Part shown: one piece after another, positions 3,485-25,242 of the stretch | Position numbering within the stretch: the first letter of the stretch is position 1 | Layout of the letters: every line of letters begins with the position of its first letter | Source: Desulfocurvus sp. | GTDB lineage: Bacteria > Desulfobacterota > Desulfovibrionia > Desulfovibrionales > Desulfovibrionaceae | Length of the DNA: 42,890 nucleotides | Assembly (NCBI GenBank): GCA_020692325.1 | Contig: JAIMKR010000008.1 | Coordinates: 86,057-128,946, forward strand | Direction of reading: 5' to 3' | Notes under the pieces: model-generated | Databases searched by the model: none | Seen by the model: the letters and a program-made list of their open reading frames with translations, nothing else | Told to the model about the DNA's origin: nothing | Translations under genes and position numbers: made by a program

Positions 3485-3490
3485 TAAAAA

Positions 3491-3690
3491 ATCGGGGGGA
3501 AACCTTTCCGCTGGAAAGGCTCTCCCCCCGTCCCCCCCTTCCAAAGGCTTTTATTGGTGGCACGGGCTGGCCACGGCTCTATCGCCTCCAAGCCCGGACG
3601 ATGGACTCCACTGATTTCCTTTTTCCAAACGAAGCGGCCCGGAATGGCAAAAGCCATTCCGGGCCGCTTCGTTTGGTGTTCAGGAAATTT
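3491..3690. repeat. Composite intergenic hairpin element, copy 1
   Basis: Two linked parts. Part A (3491-3560) is a GGGGGGAAACCTTTCC / GGAAAGG..CTCCCCCC hairpin followed by CTTCCAAAGGCTTTTA. Part B is a perfect 24-bp stem with an AAAA loop (3625-3648 with 3653-3676), enclosed by an outer ATTTCCT/AGGAAAT pair (3614-3620 with 3682-3688). The same composite occurs at 15893-16097, and part A alone at 19517-19605. Each copy lies just downstream of a plus-strand gene, so a role in termination or mRNA 3'-end stability is likely. From 3691 to 3927 I see no gene; open frames there are by-products of the palindromes. Confidence 0.85.
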
Positions 3691-3927: not shown

Positions 3928-4695
3928 CTAACGGTCCAGCAAGCCGAGGGTGATGGCGCGGGCCACGGCGTGGCTTCGGGTCGTGACCTCCAGCTTGCCC
4001 ATGGCTTTGGCGACGTAGAAATCAACTGTCTTTGATGACAGGTTGATCCGTTGCGCGGTTTCCTTGCTCGATAGCCCACGTGACACCCACAGCAGGCACT
4101 CGCGTTCCCGAGAAGACAGAACGATGCCGGAAGCGCCGTGTTCCGGCGTTTGAAGAAGCATTTGCAGGCGGGTGTGCGCGTAAAGCGCCGCCAGTTGGGC
4201 AACCTGCCCCCACTCGGCCAGAAAGTGTTCGAACTCGACGGAACGCATGGCGTTGGACAGCGACATGCCTGCGAACGGATAGCGGCCCGGCGAACGCAGG
4301 GGAATGGCCACGCCGACCTTCATGCCGCAGTCCCCCGCCTCGGTGACTATGCGACGCTGGAGTGCCGTCAGCCCACGGCCCCGGTCCGGCCACTGGCCGA
4401 GGTAATCGCGGCCGACCAGCAACGGCGGCATATTCTTGGTGCAATACCGCACCACAGGGTCGTCACGATAGTAGCACTCCCGCCGATAGCGCTCCTGGTA
4501 GGCGGCGGGAAAGTTGGACAGAGTCGCGACCCCGTCTTCCACGGTCTCCATCCCCGTGGAACGGACACCGGCATAGCCATACTCTATCAGGTCGAACCCC
4601 AATGATTTCTGAAAAATAACGGTCTCGTCCCAGGTTTCATGGACCGACGTGGTTGTGGTGAGGCGTGAGAGGAAAACGTCGAGACAGGTGCACAT
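3928..4695 (-). CDS. LuxR-type regulator with autoinducer-binding domain (LuxR solo)
   Basis: Predicted transcription factor of the quorum-sensing LuxR family. The chosen ATG gives 255 residues and has GGGAGG upstream; an ATG at 4749 is in frame but has no ribosome site. Residues about 20-180 fit the autoinducer-binding fold: NFPAAYQERY, YYRDDPVV (Asp79-Pro80, the place of the ligand-contacting D70-P71 of TraR) and CGMKVGVAIPL. Residues about 191-255 form the LuxR-type helix-turn-helix (LSSREREC, GLSSKETAQRINLSSKTVDF). No LuxI-type synthase is in the window, so it would be a solo. It is divergent from the tail-collar genes, and the shared intergenic region holds a perfect inverted repeat where LuxR regulators usually bind. 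The ligand is unknown. Confidence 0.85.
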   Translation of the reverse strand: MCTCLDVFLSRLTTTTSVHETWDETVIFQKSLGFDLIEYGYAGVRSTGMETVEDGVATLSNFPAAYQERYRRECYYRDDPVVRYCTKNMPPLLVGRDYLGQWPDRGRGLTALQRRIVTEAGDCGMKVGVAIPLRSPGRYPFAGMSLSNAMRSVEFEHFLAEWGQVAQLAALYAHTRLQMLLQTPEHGASGIVLSSRERECLLWVSRGLSSKETAQRINLSSKTVDFYVAKAMGKLEVTTRSHAVARAITLGLLDR

Positions 4696-4751
4696 GCTGA
4701 CCTTGCCCTCCCGGTCACAAACTCCCCCAAAAACTTTCACCAGCATCACTT

Positions 4752-4767
4752 TTAGTAAATGTACTAA
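4752..4767. promoter_or_regulatory. Candidate lux-box-like operator
   Basis: TTAGTA-AATG-TACTAA is a perfect 6-4-6 inverted repeat that ends at the base before the predicted -35 hexamer of the collar operon. With a start point about 7 bases after the -10, its centre is near -42.5, the classical position of activator-bound lux boxes. The sequence is not the canonical Vibrio lux box, so linking it to the divergent LuxR gene is inference. Confidence 0.5.
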
Positions 4768-4795
4768 TTGTTAAACATTCTGTCTATGGTAATAT
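4768..4795 (+). promoter_or_regulatory. Predicted sigma-70 promoter of the tail-collar operon
   Basis: TTGTTA (4768-4773), 16-base spacer, TAATAT (4790-4795), in a clearly AT-rich stretch. The weak -35 next to an inverted repeat fits an activator-dependent promoter. Confidence 0.5.
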
Positions 4796-4923
4796 TTTAA
4801 CAAGATTTCACATTTCAACTGGTCATGATGCATAGGCAAAGCCGCTCCGAGGCATGGGGCGGCGGATTGGCGCGATGGGCAGATTCTTTGAACAAACCGG
4901 TTGCAGCATGGGAGGAGTCGGCG

Positions 4924-5508
4924 ATGGGAGATTCGGGTGGTAATGTTGAAGAGCTTGTTTATCCTGGAGAAATACGCATGTTTGCGGGTACTTACGCCCC
5001 ATACGGGTGGAGGCTGTGCGATGGCGGCAGCATGTCGATTGCTGCGTATCAAAGTCTTTATGCGGCCATCGGCACCACATTCGGTGTCGGCAGCATCCCC
5101 GGGATGACCTTCAGACTCCCGGATCTCATGGGGCGTGTGCCCGTGCATGCCGGTCAGGGGGAAAGCCTGTCCTACCGCGTGCGAGGCGAATCCTTTGGTG
5201 AGGAAAAAGTAGAGCTCTCAGAGTGGACCACCCCCGCACACACGCACCGCGTCTGGCTCGGCGGGCAACAGTCCAGCACAGGCAAATACCCGGCAACGGA
5301 AATCGTGGCGAATGGGCATTATGTTGCAGACAGCACAAACGCAAGGATATTCAGCAGCACGACATCGCCTGATCTGGTTGAGTTTGAAAAAGCGACAATG
5401 GAAGAGTCTCAGTCTGTGATACCACACCAAAACACAATGCCTAGCATGTGTATTAATTACATTATTTGCGTCGACGATGGTGTGGTTAACGGACAAATAC
5501 AGGAGTAG
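4924..5508 (+). CDS. Phage tail collar domain protein (MdpB-like), first of three
   Basis: A 194-residue protein of the tail-collar family (PF07484 type, often named microcystin-dependent protein). ATG at 4924 is chosen because GGAGGAG ends 6 bases before it; the frame is open further upstream. The N-terminal collar domain (about 11-75) reads YPGEIRMF, APYGWRLCDGG, FRLPDLMGRVPV. The middle holds TPAHTH (His106-x-His108), similar to the His-x-His metal sites of phage tail fibres. The C-terminus keeps the family pattern HQNTMPSMCINYIICVDDG (about 168-186). Base composition is less GC-rich than in the flanks. It lies 4 bases before the second paralogue. The real role of bacterial MdpB-like trios is not established; a trimeric fibre or adhesin tip is my inference. 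Confidence 0.85.
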   Translation: MGDSGGNVEELVYPGEIRMFAGTYAPYGWRLCDGGSMSIAAYQSLYAAIGTTFGVGSIPGMTFRLPDLMGRVPVHAGQGESLSYRVRGESFGEEKVELSEWTTPAHTHRVWLGGQQSSTGKYPATEIVANGHYVADSTNARIFSSTTSPDLVEFEKATMEESQSVIPHQNTMPSMCINYIICVDDGVVNGQIQE

Positions 5509-5512
5509 TGAG

Positions 5513-6040
5513 ATGGATGCATATATCGGTGAAATTCGTATATTTAGTCAAGGTGGAAGTGTCCCAGAAGGATGGCTTGAGTGTAATGGTCAAGAGCTGA
5601 AAACTAATGATTATCCAGCATTGGCAACACTGCTTCAAGGAGCGTTTGGAAAAACAAATACGACATTCAAACTGCCGAATCTGCGTGGGAGAACGCCGAT
5701 TGGCGTCAGCAAGGAGTATAAGATTGGAGCCGCCGGTGGTGTTGAGCAGGTTGCATTGACAGAGGATAGCTATACTAACCATTCACATCAGATTCGTGCT
5801 TCTTCCGTTGAGATAACAACATCTGAACCTTCTGCGCTCGGTGTGACAGGTGGACAATTGGGAATGTTGTACTCGCCTGTGAATCCAAGCAAGACATCGC
5901 CGCGCTATCTTCATGCCGATTCTGTCAGCAGCGCTGGAGCAGGTGCTCCGCATAACAATATGCAGCCGTCGCTTGTGCTCAGGTTTGGCATCGCCATAAC
6001 CGGGGAATACCCGCAACCGTCGCCAGCGGACCCAAAATAG
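5513..6040 (+). CDS. Phage tail collar domain protein (MdpB-like), second of three
   Basis: A 175-residue paralogue of the preceding gene. Start ATG 5513 has AGGAG 7 bases upstream; the AGGAG overlaps the end of the previous gene, implying translational coupling. The collar domain at about 4-65 shows YIGEIRIF, VPEGWLECNGQEL, FKLPNLRGRTPIGV. His90-Ser-His92 takes the place of the His-x-His motif, and HNNMQPSLVLRFGIAI (147-162) is the conserved C-terminal signature. It is the most AT-rich of the three, with many A/T third positions, which contrasts with the GC-rich genome and suggests acquisition by transfer. No signal peptide is visible, so export would need another route. Confidence 0.85.
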   Translation: MDAYIGEIRIFSQGGSVPEGWLECNGQELKTNDYPALATLLQGAFGKTNTTFKLPNLRGRTPIGVSKEYKIGAAGGVEQVALTEDSYTNHSHQIRASSVEITTSEPSALGVTGGQLGMLYSPVNPSKTSPRYLHADSVSSAGAGAPHNNMQPSLVLRFGIAITGEYPQPSPADPK

Positions 6041-6051
6041 GAGGAATGGAG

Positions 6052-6606
6052 ATGCCAGATATTTATTATATCGGCGAGATTCGCCTCTTCGCTCATGGAG
6101 TGATTCCAAAAGGATGGCTGAGCTGTGATGGGCAACTCATTCCGGTGAGCACGTGGAACGTACTGCTTCGCACAGTCATCGGAAATCGTTTCGGCGGAGA
6201 CGGAATAAATAATTTTGGGCTGCCGAATCTGAACGGCCGAGCGCCGATGGGCGTTGGAGCAGGGCCGGCATTGACCACCCGCGAGCTTGGCAACGCCCCG
6301 GGAGAGCAAAAAGTCTATATGGATATAGGTACTAAGCCCGCGCATCTGCATTACCTCCGCGGTGTAAAGATCTATGGGGACACAACGGAGGCGGAGGGGC
6401 ACCTGTTTGCAACGGCCGCGGTTGGCTCGGGAAAAGGAAAAGAAGTTGCTGGATACGCAATAACTCCCCATATCGGCTGCTACTTGGGCGGAGAGACGGT
6501 TGCCACTGCATGCACCGATAACGGGCACCCCAACATGCAGCCCTATTTGCCGTTGCAGTTCTGCATCGCCATTGAGGGACTTTTCCCGCCACGTACGGAA
6601 GAGTAG
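6052..6606 (+). CDS. Phage tail collar domain protein (MdpB-like), third of three
   Basis: A 184-residue paralogue. ATG 6052 is preferred over ATG 6046 because AGGAGG sits 7 bases before the former and only one base before the latter. The collar domain (about 6-68) reads YIGEIRLF, IPKGWLSCDGQL, FGLPNLNGRAPMGV; AHLH gives His98-x-His100; HPNMQPYLPLQFCIAIEG is the C-terminal family signature. It is separated from the autotransporter gene by only 6 bases, so the four genes are probably one transcript. The three paralogues have diverged strongly in their middle parts while the two ends are kept, as expected for subunits of one hetero-oligomer. Confidence 0.85.
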   Translation: MPDIYYIGEIRLFAHGVIPKGWLSCDGQLIPVSTWNVLLRTVIGNRFGGDGINNFGLPNLNGRAPMGVGAGPALTTRELGNAPGEQKVYMDIGTKPAHLHYLRGVKIYGDTTEAEGHLFATAAVGSGKGKEVAGYAITPHIGCYLGGETVATACTDNGHPNMQPYLPLQFCIAIEGLFPPRTEE

Positions 6607-6612
6607 CGCGCC

Positions 6613-9600
6613 ATGTCGGCGAAGCCTGAACCAGAAGGCACGGGGACGGCGAATGAATCGCGCGCCTGTTTGGGAGCGTCCAGGTGGCGGCGCCTGGGCG
6701 CTCAGAACGCGTTGTTTCTGGTACTGCTCGCACTTCTGCTTTCGCCCTCCACGGTCCGGGCCCTCACAACGGAAGGCTTCGGCGGCGACCCCGGCCCCCC
6801 TCTAGACAGCGCCGTCCTCGGAGGTGCCGGAGGCGCCAACCCGGCCACATACAATTCCTTCGTCTACACCTACCGCGATAGCGCGCGGAGCACGGTGAGC
6901 AATATCGTTTGGTGGAACGATTGCACCCCGGATTCTGCGGGGGGCTGCTTCCAAACGGCCTGGGACAACTCGGTTTACGGGCGTGAGTTCGACATCGCCA
7001 AGAGCGGGGGCGGGAACTTCAACTTCAACGGGCTCAGGCTCTGCAACTACACCAACGCAAACGGCGGGGATACGTCCAGCGCGCTCAAGGTCTACATTCA
7101 GGGCTACCGCAGCGGAACGAAAGTAAACGAATACGATAGCGGGTCAAAGACCATTGCGGAATGCAACTTCGCCTGGACAACATATACGCCGAGCACTGCT
7201 TGGATGAACATTGACGAGGTGCGGATCGTCCCAGTCACTTCGGGTCAGACCTTGGACCCGTTTATCGACGATGTGGTTTACGATTTTTCAACCGTCACCA
7301 CAGGCTCCGCAAGCAGCATAACCTACATCGGGGCAACGCTGAACGGAACGGTCAATCCTCAGGGAAGCAGCCCCAGCGTTTCATTCAGTTATGGCACGAC
7401 CGCAAGTTACGGCAGCACGGCCACGGCGACGCCGAGCACGGTTTCTGGATCCACCAGTACTTCGGTTTCCGCATCGGTGACGGGCCTTAGCTGTAGCACA
7501 TCCTATCACTACAAAATGACGGAAACGATCAGCGGAGTTGTGTTTAGCGGCGCTGACAAAACCTTTTCCACCACCCTCTGCAACACCGCCCCCACCTTCG
7601 TGGGGGCGACCACGGCCCTCAGCGTGACGCAGAACGCCAGCGCCACGGACATGAAAAGCCTGCTGCACGCGAGCGACAGCGATTCCGGCCAGACGCTGAC
7701 CTGGACCCAGAGCACGGCCCCGGGCCACGGCGCCCTCGTCATCAGCAGCGCCACCGCCGGCTCCGGCAGTGTGGACATCACCCCCGGCGGCACGATCACC
7801 TATACGCCAACCAGCGGCTACACCGGGCCGGACAGCTTCGCCATACAGGTGAGCGACGGCACGGACACCGCCATTCGCACCATAACCGTGGCGGTGAAGA
7901 GCCCTCAAAACATCACCTTCAGCAATCCCGGGACGCAGAATTTCGGCACCACGCCCACGCTCACGGCCACGGCCAGTTCCGGCCTCACGGTGGGCTTCAC
8001 CTCCGCCACCACGGGCGTATGCACCGCCACAACCGGCGGAGCGCTCACCTTCGTCACCGCCGGCACCTGCACCATCAACGCCGATCAGGCGGGCAACGGC
8101 ACATACGCCGCCGCCACGCAGGCGAGCCAAAGCTTCCTGGTCGCCGCCATTGTTCCCGGCGCGCCCACAATTGGCGCGGCTACGGCCGGAGATCAGCAGG
8201 TCGCGGTGGCCTTCACCGCGCCGACCTCCACCGGCGGGGCGGGCATAACCGGTTACACCGCCACGTCCAGCCCCGGCGGCAAGACGGGCACTGGCACGTC
8301 CAGTCCCATCGCCGTCACCGGTCTGACCAACGGCACGGCCTACACCTTCATGGTCACCGCCACCAACTCCGCAGGCACCAGCGCGGCCTCGGCCGCTTCG
8401 GCCAGTGTGACGCCCAAGGCCAGCCAGACCATAACCTTCGCCAACCCCGGCGCCCAGGTTTTCGGCACCTCGTCCACGCTCACGGCCACGGCCAGCTCGC
8501 ATCTCGCGGTGAGCTTCAGCTCGTCCACCACCGGCGTATGCACCGTCGCCACCGCGGGCGCGCTCACCTTCGTCAACACCGGCACCTGCACCATCAACGT
8601 CGATCAGGCCGGCGACAGCGCCTATCTCGCCGCGACCACCGTCACGCAGAGCTTCACCGTGTCCGGTCCGACGGTCGTTGTCGCGCCGGCCACACTCCCC
8701 AGCGCGACGAGCAACACGGCCTACAGCCAAACGCTGACCGCCAGCGGTGCGACCTCGCCTTATTCCTTCACCGTCAGCAGCGGCAGTCTGCCCACGGGGC
8801 TCGCGCTCTCCCCAGCCGGCGTGATTTCCGGCACCCCGACGGTAGAGGGCTCCATCTCCTTCACCGTGACGGCCATGGACAGCAGCGTTTCGCATTTTTC
8901 CGGCAATCGAAGCTACACCCTGGCGGTGGTCCCGCCGCTTCCTGTGGCCAACGCCGTCAGCGCCACCGTGGCGCACAACAGCTCGGGCAACGTCATCGCC
9001 CTCAATATCACCGGCGGCGCGGCCACCAGCGTGGCCGTGGTGCGCGCGGCCGGGCACGGCGCGGCCACGCCCAGCGGCGCTAGCATCACCTACACACCGG
9101 CGAACGGCTATTCCGGCACGGACAGCTTCACCTACACGGCGACCAACGGTGGGGGCACCTCCGCGGCGGCCACGGTCAGCATCACCGTTCAAGCCCAGGC
9201 GCCCGTGGCCGGAGCGGTCAGCGTCACGGTGCTGGCCAACAGCACCGGCAACGCCATCCCCCTTGTCATCACCGGCGGCGCCGCCGCCAGCGTGACCGTG
9301 GCCAGCGCGGCCAGCCACGGCGCGGCCACGGCCAGTGGCGCGCGCATCACCTACACCCCGGCGACCGACTACGCCGGGCCGGACAGCTTCACCTACACCG
9401 CCACCAACACGGGGGGCACCTCGGCCGCAGCCACGGTCAGCATCTCCGTGCAGGCCCGTGCGAATCCCACCCAGGACGCCACAGTGCGGGGCGTCCTCAC
9501 CTCCCAGGCCAACACGGCCAACCGCTTCGCCAAGACGCAGGTCAGCAATTTTCAGACCCATCTGGAGAGCCTGCACGTCCGCCCCCCCTCGGCACAGGGC

Positions 9601-10734
9601 TTTGGCGGGAAATCAAACGATGGAGCGCCGACGGGCGGCAAAACGGCGGGGGGGCGTTTTCCGGCTGGCTCGCCGGACCAATCGGCCGATCCTTCTGGCG
9701 CAGCCTCCGCCCCGGCCGATCAAAACGGCGGCGCGACGTCCAACACGGGTGTCATGGCCCCGTCCGCTTTTGGGGCGGGCGGGCTCCTTGGCAAATGGGA
9801 CTTGACATCCATCCTCACGACCATCGCCAAGAACGCCAAAAGCGGCTCCAACGCATGGCCCTGGAAAAGTCTGAATCTGGACGGCAAGAATGACGACGCC
9901 CTGGGCACGGGCATGTCCGTGTGGACTGGCGGCACCATAACCTTTGGCCACAGCCATGACAGCGACGCGCGCTTCACCACCTCGGGCCTCTCCATGGGCA
10001 CGGACTTCCGTGTCAACGACGCGCTGGTCCTGGGACTCGGCGTGGGGTACGGGCACGAGCACGAAACCATTGGTGACGATGGCACGAAAAACACTGGGGA
10101 TAGCTATGGGGTCATGCTCTATGGCAGCCTTCAACCCCAGGAGGGGTTTTTCCTGGACGGCCTGGTGGGCGTGAACCGTCTGGACTTCGACGCGCATCGT
10201 TATGCCAGCGGCGCGGGCGGTTATGCCCAGTCGCAACGGAAAGGCACGCAATGGATCGGCTCGGTGAACGGCGGCTATGAGTTCAAAACCTCCAACGTGC
10301 TCCTCTCCCCCTATGTCCGGCTCGACCTGGCTGCGACGCATCTCGACCGCAGCGACGAAAGCGGGGCGGGAGTCTACAACCTCGTCTACTTCAAGCAGGA
10401 CCTCTCAAGCACCAAGGCGGCGCTGGGTCTGCGGAGCTCCTACGCGTATGAGCGGGAGAACTTCTCGGCCAAGCCGTTCGTCCGCGTTGAATACCAGCGC
10501 GATTTCTCCAACGGCGGCTTGGCCTCGATGGCCTATGCCGATCAGGTATCCACCGGAGCGAACTATCAGTACAACCTGGGCGTCACCGACAAGAACAATT
10601 TCGTTCTGGGCGGCGGCGCGGACATGCTGTTTCTCGACAGCTGGCAGCTGGGTCTCGACTACCGCTATACGCGCGGCTCCGATACGACGATGCAGACCTT
10701 CGGCGTATTGCTTCGGAAATATTTTACGTTTTGA
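6613..10734 (+). CDS. Large Ig/fibronectin-like repeat autotransporter (type V secreted surface protein)
   Basis: 1373 residues. A signal peptide lies at about 33-50 (hydrophobic ALFLVLLALLLS, likely cleavage after STVRA). A unique N-terminal domain with paired Cys residues spans about 52-230. Then come beta-sandwich modules: a fibronectin-like module (235-320), a cadherin-like Ig module (325-428), two near-duplicate modules with the TCTIN-x-DQAG motif (about 430-512 and 604-685) around a fibronectin type III module (513-602), a putative Ig module (689-775, SLPTGLALSPAGVISGTP), and two tandem cadherin-like modules (775-860 and 863-950, ITYTP-x4-Y-x-G-x-DSFTYTAT). A Gly/Ala/Pro linker leads to a C-terminal beta-barrel (about 1096-1373) ending in Phe (RKYFTF), typical of autotransporters. 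It should display its repeats on the outer membrane. It lies last in the collar operon. Adhesion is a plausible role, not shown. Confidence 0.85.
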   Translation: MSAKPEPEGTGTANESRACLGASRWRRLGAQNALFLVLLALLLSPSTVRALTTEGFGGDPGPPLDSAVLGGAGGANPATYNSFVYTYRDSARSTVSNIVWWNDCTPDSAGGCFQTAWDNSVYGREFDIAKSGGGNFNFNGLRLCNYTNANGGDTSSALKVYIQGYRSGTKVNEYDSGSKTIAECNFAWTTYTPSTAWMNIDEVRIVPVTSGQTLDPFIDDVVYDFSTVTTGSASSITYIGATLNGTVNPQGSSPSVSFSYGTTASYGSTATATPSTVSGSTSTSVSASVTGLSCSTSYHYKMTETISGVVFSGADKTFSTTLCNTAPTFVGATTALSVTQNASATDMKSLLHASDSDSGQTLTWTQSTAPGHGALVISSATAGSGSVDITPGGTITYTPTSGYTGPDSFAIQVSDGTDTAIRTITVAVKSPQNITFSNPGTQNFGTTPTLTATASSGLTVGFTSATTGVCTATTGGALTFVTAGTCTINADQAGNGTYAAATQASQSFLVAAIVPGAPTIGAATAGDQQVAVAFTAPTSTGGAGITGYTATSSPGGKTGTGTSSPIAVTGLTNGTAYTFMVTATNSAGTSAASAASASVTPKASQTITFANPGAQVFGTSSTLTATASSHLAVSFSSSTTGVCTVATAGALTFVNTGTCTINVDQAGDSAYLAATTVTQSFTVSGPTVVVAPATLPSATSNTAYSQTLTASGATSPYSFTVSSGSLPTGLALSPAGVISGTPTVEGSISFTVTAMDSSVSHFSGNRSYTLAVVPPLPVANAVSATVAHNSSGNVIALNITGGAATSVAVVRAAGHGAATPSGASITYTPANGYSGTDSFTYTATNGGGTSAAATVSITVQAQAPVAGAVSVTVLANSTGNAIPLVITGGAAASVTVASAASHGAATASGARITYTPATDYAGPDSFTYTATNTGGTSAAATVSISVQARANPTQDATVRGVLTSQANTANRFAKTQVSNFQTHLESLHVRPPSAQGFGGKSNDGAPTGGKTAGGRFPAGSPDQSADPSGAASAPADQNGGATSNTGVMAPSAFGAGGLLGKWDLTSILTTIAKNAKSGSNAWPWKSLNLDGKNDDALGTGMSVWTGGTITFGHSHDSDARFTTSGLSMGTDFRVNDALVLGLGVGYGHEHETIGDDGTKNTGDSYGVMLYGSLQPQEGFFLDGLVGVNRLDFDAHRYASGAGGYAQSQRKGTQWIGSVNGGYEFKTSNVLLSPYVRLDLAATHLDRSDESGAGVYNLVYFKQDLSSTKAALGLRSSYAYERENFSAKPFVRVEYQRDFSNGGLASMAYADQVSTGANYQYNLGVTDKNNFVLGGGADMLFLDSWQLGLDYRYTRGSDTTMQTFGVLLRKYFTF

Positions 10735-15841: not shown

Positions 15842-15892
15842 CCACCGCCCAGGCCCGCGCCCGAATGAAATGGCGAGGGAGAAGGCGAGAGA

Positions 15893-16097
15893 ATCGGGGG
15901 GAAACCTTTCCGCTGGAAAGTTTCTCCCCCCCCGCCCCCCTTCCAAAGGCTTTTACAGGTGACCTCTGGCGGGCCGTGGCCCTGGCGCCATGCTCCAAGC
16001 GTTGATGATGGGGTTAAATCTTTCTCCCTTTCCAAAAACCAAAGCGGCCCGGAATGGCGAAAGCCAGTCCGGGCCGCTTTGGTTGGTCTTTGGAAAA
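15893..16097. repeat. Composite intergenic hairpin element, copy 2
   Basis: Part A (15893-15961) repeats the GGGGGGAAACCTTTCC hairpin and CTTCCAAAGGCTTTTA of copy 1. Part B has a 22-bp stem (16037-16058 with 16063-16084) with one mismatch and a GAAA tetraloop, enclosed by TTTCCAAA/TTTGGAAA (16029-16036 with 16089-16096). The outer and distal paired bases differ from copy 1, yet pairing is kept. The stretch between A and B also aligns loosely with copy 1 (CTCCAAGC, GATGG). Confidence 0.85.
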
Positions 16098-19500: not shown

Positions 19501-19516
19501 GGAAGAGGTGACGTGA

Positions 19517-19605
19517 ACCGGGGCGAAACCTTTCCGCTGGAAAGGTTCTCCCCCCGGCCCCCCTTTCCAAAGGCTTTTATCGGTGACACGGGCCGACCAA
19601 GGCTC
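19517..19605. repeat. Intergenic hairpin element, part A only (copy 3)
   Basis: CGGGGCGAAACCTTTCC pairs with GGAAAGGTTCTCCCCCCG and is followed by CTTTCCAAAGGCTTTTAT and CGGTGACACGGGCC, matching part A of the elements at 3491 and 15893. The long part-B palindrome is missing. The following 60 bases still resemble the copy-2 flank (AATCCGC, GGCGAATGCC). Confidence 0.8.
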
Positions 19606-19669
19606 CGCCGCCCCGCCGCCGGGAACGTCCGTCAGTGCATTGCGAATCCGCGCGGGGGCAACCGGACGA

Positions 19670-24033: not shown

Positions 24034-25242
24034 ATGAGCGAGAAGGTCGTCTACCTCGACAACAACGCCACAACCCGCGTGGCCCCGGAAGTCCTTGACG
24101 TCATGCTCCCGTTCTTCTCCGAGCGGTACGGCAACCCCAGCTCCATGCACAGCTTCGGCGGCGCGGTGGGCAGGGAGATGCGCGAGGCCCGGCAGGCGCT
24201 GGCCGATCTGCTCGGCTGCGAATCGGACGAGATCATCTTCACCTCCTGCGGCACGGAGAGCGACAACACCGCCATCCGTTCCGCCCTGGCCGCCCAGCCC
24301 GAGAAGCGGCACATCGTCACCACCCGCGTGGAGCATCCGGCCGTGCTCTCCCTGTGCAAGTTCCTGGAGCGCAGCCAGGGCTACCGCGTCACCTACCTGG
24401 GCGTGGACGCCGAGGGCCGGCTCGACCTCAAGGAGTTCGAGGACAGCCTGACGTCGGACACGGCCATCGTGTCCATCATGTGGGCCAACAACGAGACCGG
24501 CGTCATCTTCCCCATCCCGGAGATCGCGCGCATCGCCCACAAGCACGGGGTGATGATGCATACCGACGCCGTGCAGGCCGTGGGCAAGGTCGACATCAAC
24601 CTGCGCGAGCTCGATGTGGACATGCTCTCGCTTTCCGGCCACAAGCTGCACGCGCCCAAGGGCGTGGGCGCGCTCTACGTGCGGCGCAAGCTGCCCTACC
24701 GGCCGTACCTCATCGGCGGCCACCAGGAGCACGGCCGCCGCGCCGGCACCGAGGCCACCACGAGCATCATCGCCCTGGGCGAGGCGGCGAGACAGGCCCG
24801 CGCCCACATGGCGGACGAGAACACCCGCGTGCGCGCCCTGCGCGACAAGCTGGAGAATGGTCTGCTGGCCGCCGTGCCGGACAGCCGCCTTAACGGCCAC
24901 AAGATCGAGCGCCTGCCCAACACCGCCAACATCAGCTTCAAGTACGTGGAGGGCGAGGCCATCCTGCTGCTGCTCGACCAGCTCGGCATCGCGGCCAGCT
25001 CCGGCTCGGCCTGCACCTCCGGCAGTCTTGAGCCTTCGCACGTGCTGCGGGCCATGGGCGTGCCCTTCACCTACGCCCACGGTTCCATCCGCTTCTCCCT
25101 GTCGCGTTACACCACGGAGGCGGAGATAGACTACGTGGTCGAGAATCTGCCCCCCATCATCGAGAACCTGCGTAAGATCTCGCCCTATAAGCGCGGCGAG
25201 GCCGATCCCGTGGATCCGCGCAAGCCCGCCTGCTCCTGTTGA
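24034..25242 (+). CDS. nifS: NifS: PLP-dependent cysteine desulfurase
   Basis: 402 residues. It converts L-cysteine to alanine and passes the persulfide sulfur to NifU. The PLP-binding lysine is Lys204 in SLSGHKLHAPKG; pyridoxal-phosphate contacts include HTDAVQAVGK; the catalytic Cys327 lies in SSGSACTSGSLEPSHV. The N-terminus (VYLDNNATTRVAPEV) is the group I desulfurase signature, and the length matches NifS/IscS. The C-terminus ends in PACSC, an extra Cys pair. Translation is probably coupled to nifU, whose stop is 2 bases upstream. With cysK-cysE downstream the operon supplies and uses cysteine. Confidence 0.96.
   Translation: MSEKVVYLDNNATTRVAPEVLDVMLPFFSERYGNPSSMHSFGGAVGREMREARQALADLLGCESDEIIFTSCGTESDNTAIRSALAAQPEKRHIVTTRVEHPAVLSLCKFLERSQGYRVTYLGVDAEGRLDLKEFEDSLTSDTAIVSIMWANNETGVIFPIPEIARIAHKHGVMMHTDAVQAVGKVDINLRELDVDMLSLSGHKLHAPKGVGALYVRRKLPYRPYLIGGHQEHGRRAGTEATTSIIALGEAARQARAHMADENTRVRALRDKLENGLLAAVPDSRLNGHKIERLPNTANISFKYVEGEAILLLLDQLGIAASSGSACTSGSLEPSHVLRAMGVPFTYAHGSIRFSLSRYTTEAEIDYVVENLPPIIENLRKISPYKRGEADPVDPRKPACSC

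Follow-up and report, generated by a model that had tools for sequence, protein, structure and literature searches.

Three collar-protein types beside a giant repeat-rich gene: evidence for a widespread bacterial cassette with a divergent member in Desulfocurvus

In a 42,890-nucleotide stretch of DNA from Desulfocurvus sp. (the window; contig JAIMKR010000008.1 of assembly GCA_020692325.1), three tandem genes encode proteins of the phage-named Collar family (PF07484) and are followed directly by the gene of an autotransporter with immunoglobulin-type (Ig) repeats. Similar trios recur in many phyla, nearly always with one collar of each of three types, termed A, B and C, and mostly beside a giant repeat-rich open reading frame (ORF), and the collar trio together with the giant almost certainly constitutes a widespread gene cassette. 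This cassette is apparently undescribed: its single parts are known, but their constant combination of three collar types and a giant appears to be new, and the window carries one divergent member of it. The three types were not found treated as one set in the annotations or the literature searched, the latter leaving out most subscription journals; the bacterial 'tail fiber protein' or 'microcystin-dependent protein' entries (COG4675) are the same collar proteins, annotated singly and not as a three-type set.

Results

Three collar types are kept as a set across phyla

Genome loci were collected by scanning genome_contigs with six third-position collars and were therefore chosen by likeness to type C collars of trio loci. 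The best 80 of at least 583 confirmed relatives (the genome loci), 12 plasmid loci hand-picked for variety, the window, and the locus of G007, a genome of the same genus, made up the 94 loci considered, with the genomes G076 and G176 standing outside this set. Nine loci were excluded, seven for not having exactly three collars and two (L061 and L071) for a collar match under 120 aa, and 85 trios were analysed. Nine trios odd in order or tree place were kept out of model training; the permuted L088 and L107 stayed in as ABC for the other phyla.

Among the genome loci, 73 were flanked by more than 300 bases at either end; exactly three tandem collars were found in 70 of these (six in two loci, two in one), and the collars shared one strand in all 80 genome loci. 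On plasmids, tblastn with collar 1 of the window matched 143 places in 63 records, with three places in 33 of 40 rows among the matches listed, and all 12 chosen plasmid regions held three tandem collars. At L062 (3429-7769) and L092 (6630-10519), six collars apparently form two trios in succession.

When typed by profiles trained without the tested phylum, 83 of the 85 trios consisted of one A, one B and one C. The trios came from ten named phyla, although the phylum given for some may be wrong as many loci are metagenome bins. The order among the 83 was ABC in 76, BAC in four, CBA in two and BCA in one. Seven of the nine non-ABC trios were still one-of-each, with a chance of about 0.0006 under a random type draw, not all of them being independent since the window and G007 are kin. 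From these sequence comparisons, it seems that the set of types is conserved, and not their order. Gene position was kept in the best hits from another phylum for 77, 78 and 79 of 85 first, second and third collars, respectively, and a tree built on the 105 collars of 35 loci required 12 changes of position label, compared with a shuffled mean of 50. In the collar tree, 7 of 102 inner branches were strongly supported, so the held-out-phylum models were relied on instead. Local duplication of collars inside each lineage was considered and rejected by the tree together with the held-out one-of-each assignment.

A giant repeat-rich protein is encoded beside the trio

An ORF was called giant at a length of at least 500 aa and a T+S+G+N+V content of at least 44%, a threshold chosen after the list had been viewed. 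Of the 48 loci having 5 kb on both sides, 35 had such an ORF no more than 1 kb from the trio, while random placement within those 48 loci gave a mean of 6.6 and a maximum of 13 over 500 draws. Near the trio in 11 of the 12 plasmid regions was a giant gene of Ig, VcbS, YDG, choice-of-anchor, cellulose-binding or unnamed repeat type.

The giants end variously. Among 50 C-terminal pieces, six carried an autotransporter barrel, two another outer-membrane barrel, one an SLH domain and one a type 9 sorting tail, and 11 had a beta-helix match. An unnamed C-terminal segment was common to 30 of the 51 giants with a 3′ end (e.g., L116 to 8936, L075 to 8412, and L066 to 8736, 90 residues), and a Cys was present within the last 12 residues in 26 of these 30 compared with 2 of the 21 others. 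NCBIfam gave no match among eight giant C-terminal pieces. The shared segment may act as a signal for sorting or processing.

A GNAT gene within 3 kb of the trio, found in 69 of the 80 genome loci, is usual but not defining, and an annotated acetyltransferase gene was present in 9 of 11 annotated plasmid regions. In a number of loci, many of them alphaproteobacterial, a 400-500-residue protein is encoded between the trio and the GNAT gene (L025 9083-10567, L029 9114-10331, L106 10528-12042); the L029 protein had no Pfam or NCBIfam match, and the copy in the Deinococcus locus L027 is annotated as an ABC transporter substrate-binding protein.

The collars resemble phage fibre tips and carry a hypervariable segment

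Phage fibre tips such as those of gp12 and gp37 are homotrimers with HxH metal sites. The HxH motif was present in 255 of 255 collars and its region aligned with the HQH of the solved long tail fibre 8kec, and the collar region also aligned with T4 gp12 (1ocy). Entropy in the stretch from HxH to a C-terminal HxN was 2.55-2.79 bits, compared with 0.89-1.08 bits on either side, in all three types. The PHROGs tail families match most of the collar protein length; in phages, however, the matching stretch sits in longer proteins (best-hit PHROGs profiles of 303-1024 positions), whereas in the window three distinct tips without stalks are encoded apart from the giant. A positive-selection statistic has been reported for Solibacter collar paralogues (PMC3174227).

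The trio stands in a cellular context

That the row is the remnant of a prophage tail or tailocin, as its matches to PF07484 and to PHROGs tail families might suggest, is extremely improbable and is already contradicted by the census, in which viral_contigs gave six relatives and genome_contigs at least 583; one of the six, L131 on a 5.2-kb contig, has three collars. Phage records held collars at 187 places in 172 of 50,697 records, that is, mostly one copy per record. Pfam or PHROGs scans of ten window neighbours gave no clear phage gene; the remainder of the window was read from the ORF list only. These neighbours include LuxR, a transglycosylase with LysM, a SpoU methylase, TetR, two Hsp20 proteins, Sel1, an alpha/beta hydrolase and an HD-domain protein, and the transglycosylase matched PHROGs lysis and lytic-tail families (best 1e-24) via the SLT and LysM domains common to cellular enzymes.

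Elsewhere in the window genome (G000), a tail sheath and a baseplate J gene lie 8 kb apart (G000:C3:193513-202278), probably marking a prophage, while G076 has the row and gave no sheath or baseplate J match. A further point in favour of a remnant is that G176 holds three tandem collars in a tail region that is prophage-like by reading (L185, 8074-10522); these proteins are longer, all score best as type B and reach 46-53 bits with the collar model, compared with 132-160 bits in G076, and the locus had no autotransporter match and no GNAT. The absence of any other phage gene, asserted in a preliminary description of the window from its letters and ORFs, is therefore borne out for the ten neighbours scanned, and its dismissal of a prophage remnant is upheld by their cellular character, by the row of G076 and by the mostly single collars of phage records.

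The row in the window is a divergent B-A-C member

The coordinates and Pfam matches (Table 1) agree with the divergent LuxR gene, the three tandem collar genes and the autotransporter gene first described. The gaps from collar 1 to collar 2, to collar 3 and to the autotransporter were 4, 5 (or 11) and 6 bases, so the 4 to 11 bases given earlier between the collars hold. Collars 1, 2 and 3 matched Collar with E-values of 4.7e-23, 7.6e-19 and 2.6e-18, and the 3.05-Mb, 27-contig genome contained no further PF07484 match at E ≤ 0.001. The G+C content passes from 0.65-0.71 in the preceding genes to about 0.52 across the collars.

Table 1. Positions of the gene row and of associated features within the window
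Feature	Position	Strand	Remarks
Hairpin, 20 pairs	3629-3672		Between SpoU methylase gene and LuxR; related copy within 16037-16097
LuxR-type regulator	3928-4749	-	Autoind_bind + GerE (Pfam)
Divergent intergenic region, 174 bases	4750-4923		Between LuxR and collar 1
Dyad TTAGTAAATGTACTAA	4752-4767		In LuxR/collar 1 intergenic region; weak candidate operator
Collar protein 1, type B, 194 aa	4924-5508	+	ATG at 4924, GGAGGAG ahead
Collar protein 2, type A (divergent), 175 aa	5513-6040	+
Collar protein 3, type C, 186 aa	6046-6606	+	Alternative in-frame ATG at 6052
Autotransporter, 1373 aa	6613-10734	+	Long signal region; unnamed N-terminal domain, about aa 51-228; Ig/cadherin/fn3 stalk; beta-barrel, final F

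Under the held-out models, the window trio was typed B-A-C with margins of 20.6, 8.1 and 11.0 bits: collar 1 scored 138.3 (B), 117.7 (C) and 102.7 (A) bits, collar 2 scored 120.8 (A), 112.7 (B) and 107.2 (C) bits, and collar 3 scored 144.8 (C), 133.8 (B) and 123.1 (A) bits. The autotransporter matched the autotransporter beta-domain (1.2e-42), Big_9 and Cadherin_5 (three stretches each), He_PIG and fn3, and its N-terminal domain had no Pfam match. It shows the features of type Va autotransporter adhesins with Ig-type repeats, namely a signal region (by hydropathy alone), a repeat passenger and a C-terminal PF03797 barrel ending in F, but differs from them in that N-terminal domain and in sharing its row with three collars. 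PADLOC gave no match for four window proteins and one GNAT.

Two families of repeats were also seen in the window: an interspersed pair (3627-3687 and 16037-16097, 84% identity) around the 20-pair hairpin, and a repeat of 109 bases in three copies (3490-3598, 15892-16000 and 19516-19624).

The row recurs in near relatives with fast-diverging collars

In a collar profile search of 297 genomes of the class, three tandem collar matches were found in four: strong ones in G000, G007 and G076 (the last of the same family) and weak ones in G176. G007 (L036) and G076 (L172) have the window's order of collar, collar, collar and autotransporter with small gaps, and this recurrence makes the row more than chance. 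Since the flanking genes in the ORF lists differ among G000, G007 and G076, the four-gene row seems to move as a unit.

Between the window and G007, identities were 48, 48 and 43% for the collars and, along the autotransporter, 38% for the signal region, 53% for the N-terminal domain, 57% for the linker, 78% for the Ig part and 85% for the barrel, while a cysteine-desulfurase-like protein (window 24034-25239, named from reading of the ORF) was 91% identical. Among 59 genomes, the N-terminal domain was present in two, G000 and G007. Fast divergence is thus seen in the parts that would lie at the tip, although the signal region and linker of the autotransporter diverge too.

LuxR faces the row in the window but lies outside the cassette

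The window LuxR is classed from its domains as a LuxR solo, with Autoind_bind and GerE and with no match to LuxI (PF00765) in the 27-contig draft genome, the Rhizobium plasmid used as positive control having worked. The residues of the WxxxY...DP stretch have roles in acyl-homoserine lactone binding; compared with LasR, the window protein has Y in place of W and retains Y, D and P.

The preliminary description had placed LuxR within the system. That LuxR and the four genes evolved as one quorum-type unit could draw on the divergent LuxR with its 174-base shared region, and on the rhiABC genes of Rhizobium, among which one collar gene (RhiB) is induced by RhiR (PMC5977203). A similar LuxR was, however, found at 0 of 80 genome loci and 0 of 12 plasmid loci, and at neither the G007 nor the G076 row, where a 7TMR-type hybrid histidine kinase stands upstream instead; with the missing PF00765 match and with RhiA and RhiC unlike the collar models, such a unit is very improbable, and the LuxR part of our own reading is weakened too. 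It had mattered to the preliminary description whether homologous trios mostly stand without any surface protein or LuxR neighbour: the proximity of giants speaks in its favour, and the count for LuxR against it.

The rhiABC-rhiR/rhiI system of R. leguminosarum pRL10, with its collar gene (RhiB) under a LuxR-type regulator, sets a precedent for LuxR control of a collar. It differs in its single divergent collar (best 27.9 bits, type B) and its LuxI-type synthase, and no giant is annotated alongside. No RhiA- or RhiC-like gene was found next to the window collars in the ORF list or by blastp of five window proteins, and rhiABC was rejected as a relative of the trio as RhiA and RhiC fail the collar models. 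For the same reason RhiA, which serves as a cytoplasmic marker in PMC2275737, was dropped as evidence on collar location.

Matches to the window LuxR were found in 3 of 59 genomes including its own, the two in G016 at 27-28% identity. The LuxR of the sister genome G005, 75% identical, is divergent to a different adhesin row (L142, G005:C88, 3023-13375) with a ShlB-type transporter and a 2377-residue two-partner secretion protein bearing MBG and GLUG repeats. A LuxR thus faces an adhesin-type row in two close loci. This favours a role in controlling surface proteins within the genus but gives no support to a tie with the trio; LuxR was probably recruited locally, opposite adhesin rows of this genus and outside the conserved cassette.

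The G005 LuxR gap has its own 26-base near-palindrome (about 4065-4090 of L142), and no operator was common to the window and G005 LuxR regions, whose longest shared stretch was 12 bases and was not palindromic. As to the single promoter region proposed earlier, the intergenic gap is in position; the sigma-70 scan, however, gave two minus-strand (LuxR-ward) sites and no plus-strand site there, with an overall total near chance (4 in 8.1 kb compared with 2.4, sd 1.4, in shuffles). The chances that LuxR controls the row in the window organism appear evenly balanced. Trio-adjacent regulators vary: at L024 (Spirosoma), a histidine kinase and a response regulator stand ahead of the trio (5501-6831).

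Discussion

The best explanation overall, to which we assign a probability of about 0.5, is that A, B and C form a tip working with the giant. Since nearly all trios keep a single collar of every type, a joint structure is likely, and A+B+C probably make one complex; that this tip sits on the surface protein is more tentative, at somewhat less than even odds. The three chains would fold into one heterotrimer replacing the homotrimer of the phage fibre tip, in which one observed HxH pair per chain would clamp a metal ion on the trimer axis and the hypervariable segment behind it would form a ligand-binding face. Being stalkless, the tip would act with the giant, which would serve as its stalk and its anchor. 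In the window these would be the Ig-type repeats and the autotransporter barrel, whereas giants at other loci would be anchored by SLH, type 9 or different ends. Tip and stalk, a single chain in phages, would thereby be divided over four genes, and a LuxR solo may have been recruited as a switch in the window genome. The fullest version, a domesticated phage-fibre tip in at least ten phyla, built as an obligate A+B+C heterotrimer with three separately variable faces, mounted on giants with lineage-specific anchors and LuxR-switched here, is rather doubtful.

Several results weigh against this explanation. Two trios, BCC and CCC, fail the one-of-each assignment, several type calls (L024, L030, G007) rest on less than 3 bits, and the G076 collars, outside the 85, score B-B-C by 1.3 bits under the full models, which makes type A difficult to recognise in this lineage. 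Within 3 kb of the trio, 12 of the 48 loci have no giant over the threshold. The three tandem collars in the prophage-like region of G176 mean that tandem collars alone are insufficient to define the cassette. No GNAT stands beside the window trio, and G000, G007 and G076 gave weak matches only, so GNAT is not essential to the row. Finally, a signal-peptide-like N-terminus was found in 0 of 283 collars at the 2.0 cut-off (two at ≥1.8) by hydropathy alone, and no export gene common to the loci was noticed in those looked at, where no systematic search was made; the missing signal peptide counts most heavily against display at the surface, and how such collars would reach the giant is the weakest step of the explanation. 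The single surface structure of the preliminary description stands as far as the trio is linked to a giant and kept as a set; the surface location of the collars is more conjectural.

These export data suit a different arrangement, in which the collars are cytoplasmic and assist the giant prior to its export, either as a trimeric chaperone or as a scaffold for modification, with GNAT modifying the giant or the collars. A signal-like start in 36 of the 46 giants with a 5′ end (a crude hydropathy measure), the frequent GNAT neighbour and the differing C-terminal ends of the giants, which fit a partner acting before export, all favour it. However, collars that diverge fast and carry a hypervariable segment are better explained by ligand binding than by chaperoning of a conserved stalk, and we know of no chaperone with a fibre-tip fold; we consider this arrangement unlikely. 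Slightly less likely still is that the collars exit by their own route and work as a free lectin, cross-linking cells or matrix and attaching to the giant outside the cell. Fast divergence and fibre-tip similarity despite the missing signal peptide agree with a lectin, and a soil metaproteome (PMC5579227) includes COG4675 'microcystin-dependent protein', which indicates that the family is expressed and says nothing on location; export itself is not indicated, nor was a common secretion gene noticed in the loci looked at.

With the A+B+C tip working with a giant as the preferred explanation, the three-type set kept across phyla beside giants points to a cellular device despite the phage names ('tail fiber protein') in annotated records, and suggests a sticking or recognition device shared by many phyla. 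Such collars should accordingly not be counted as prophage genes. If A+B+C is indeed a heterotrimer, it would amount to a naturally occurring, modular head for binding whose three variable faces are independent, and it would allow the role of such proteins in bacteria to be tested directly.

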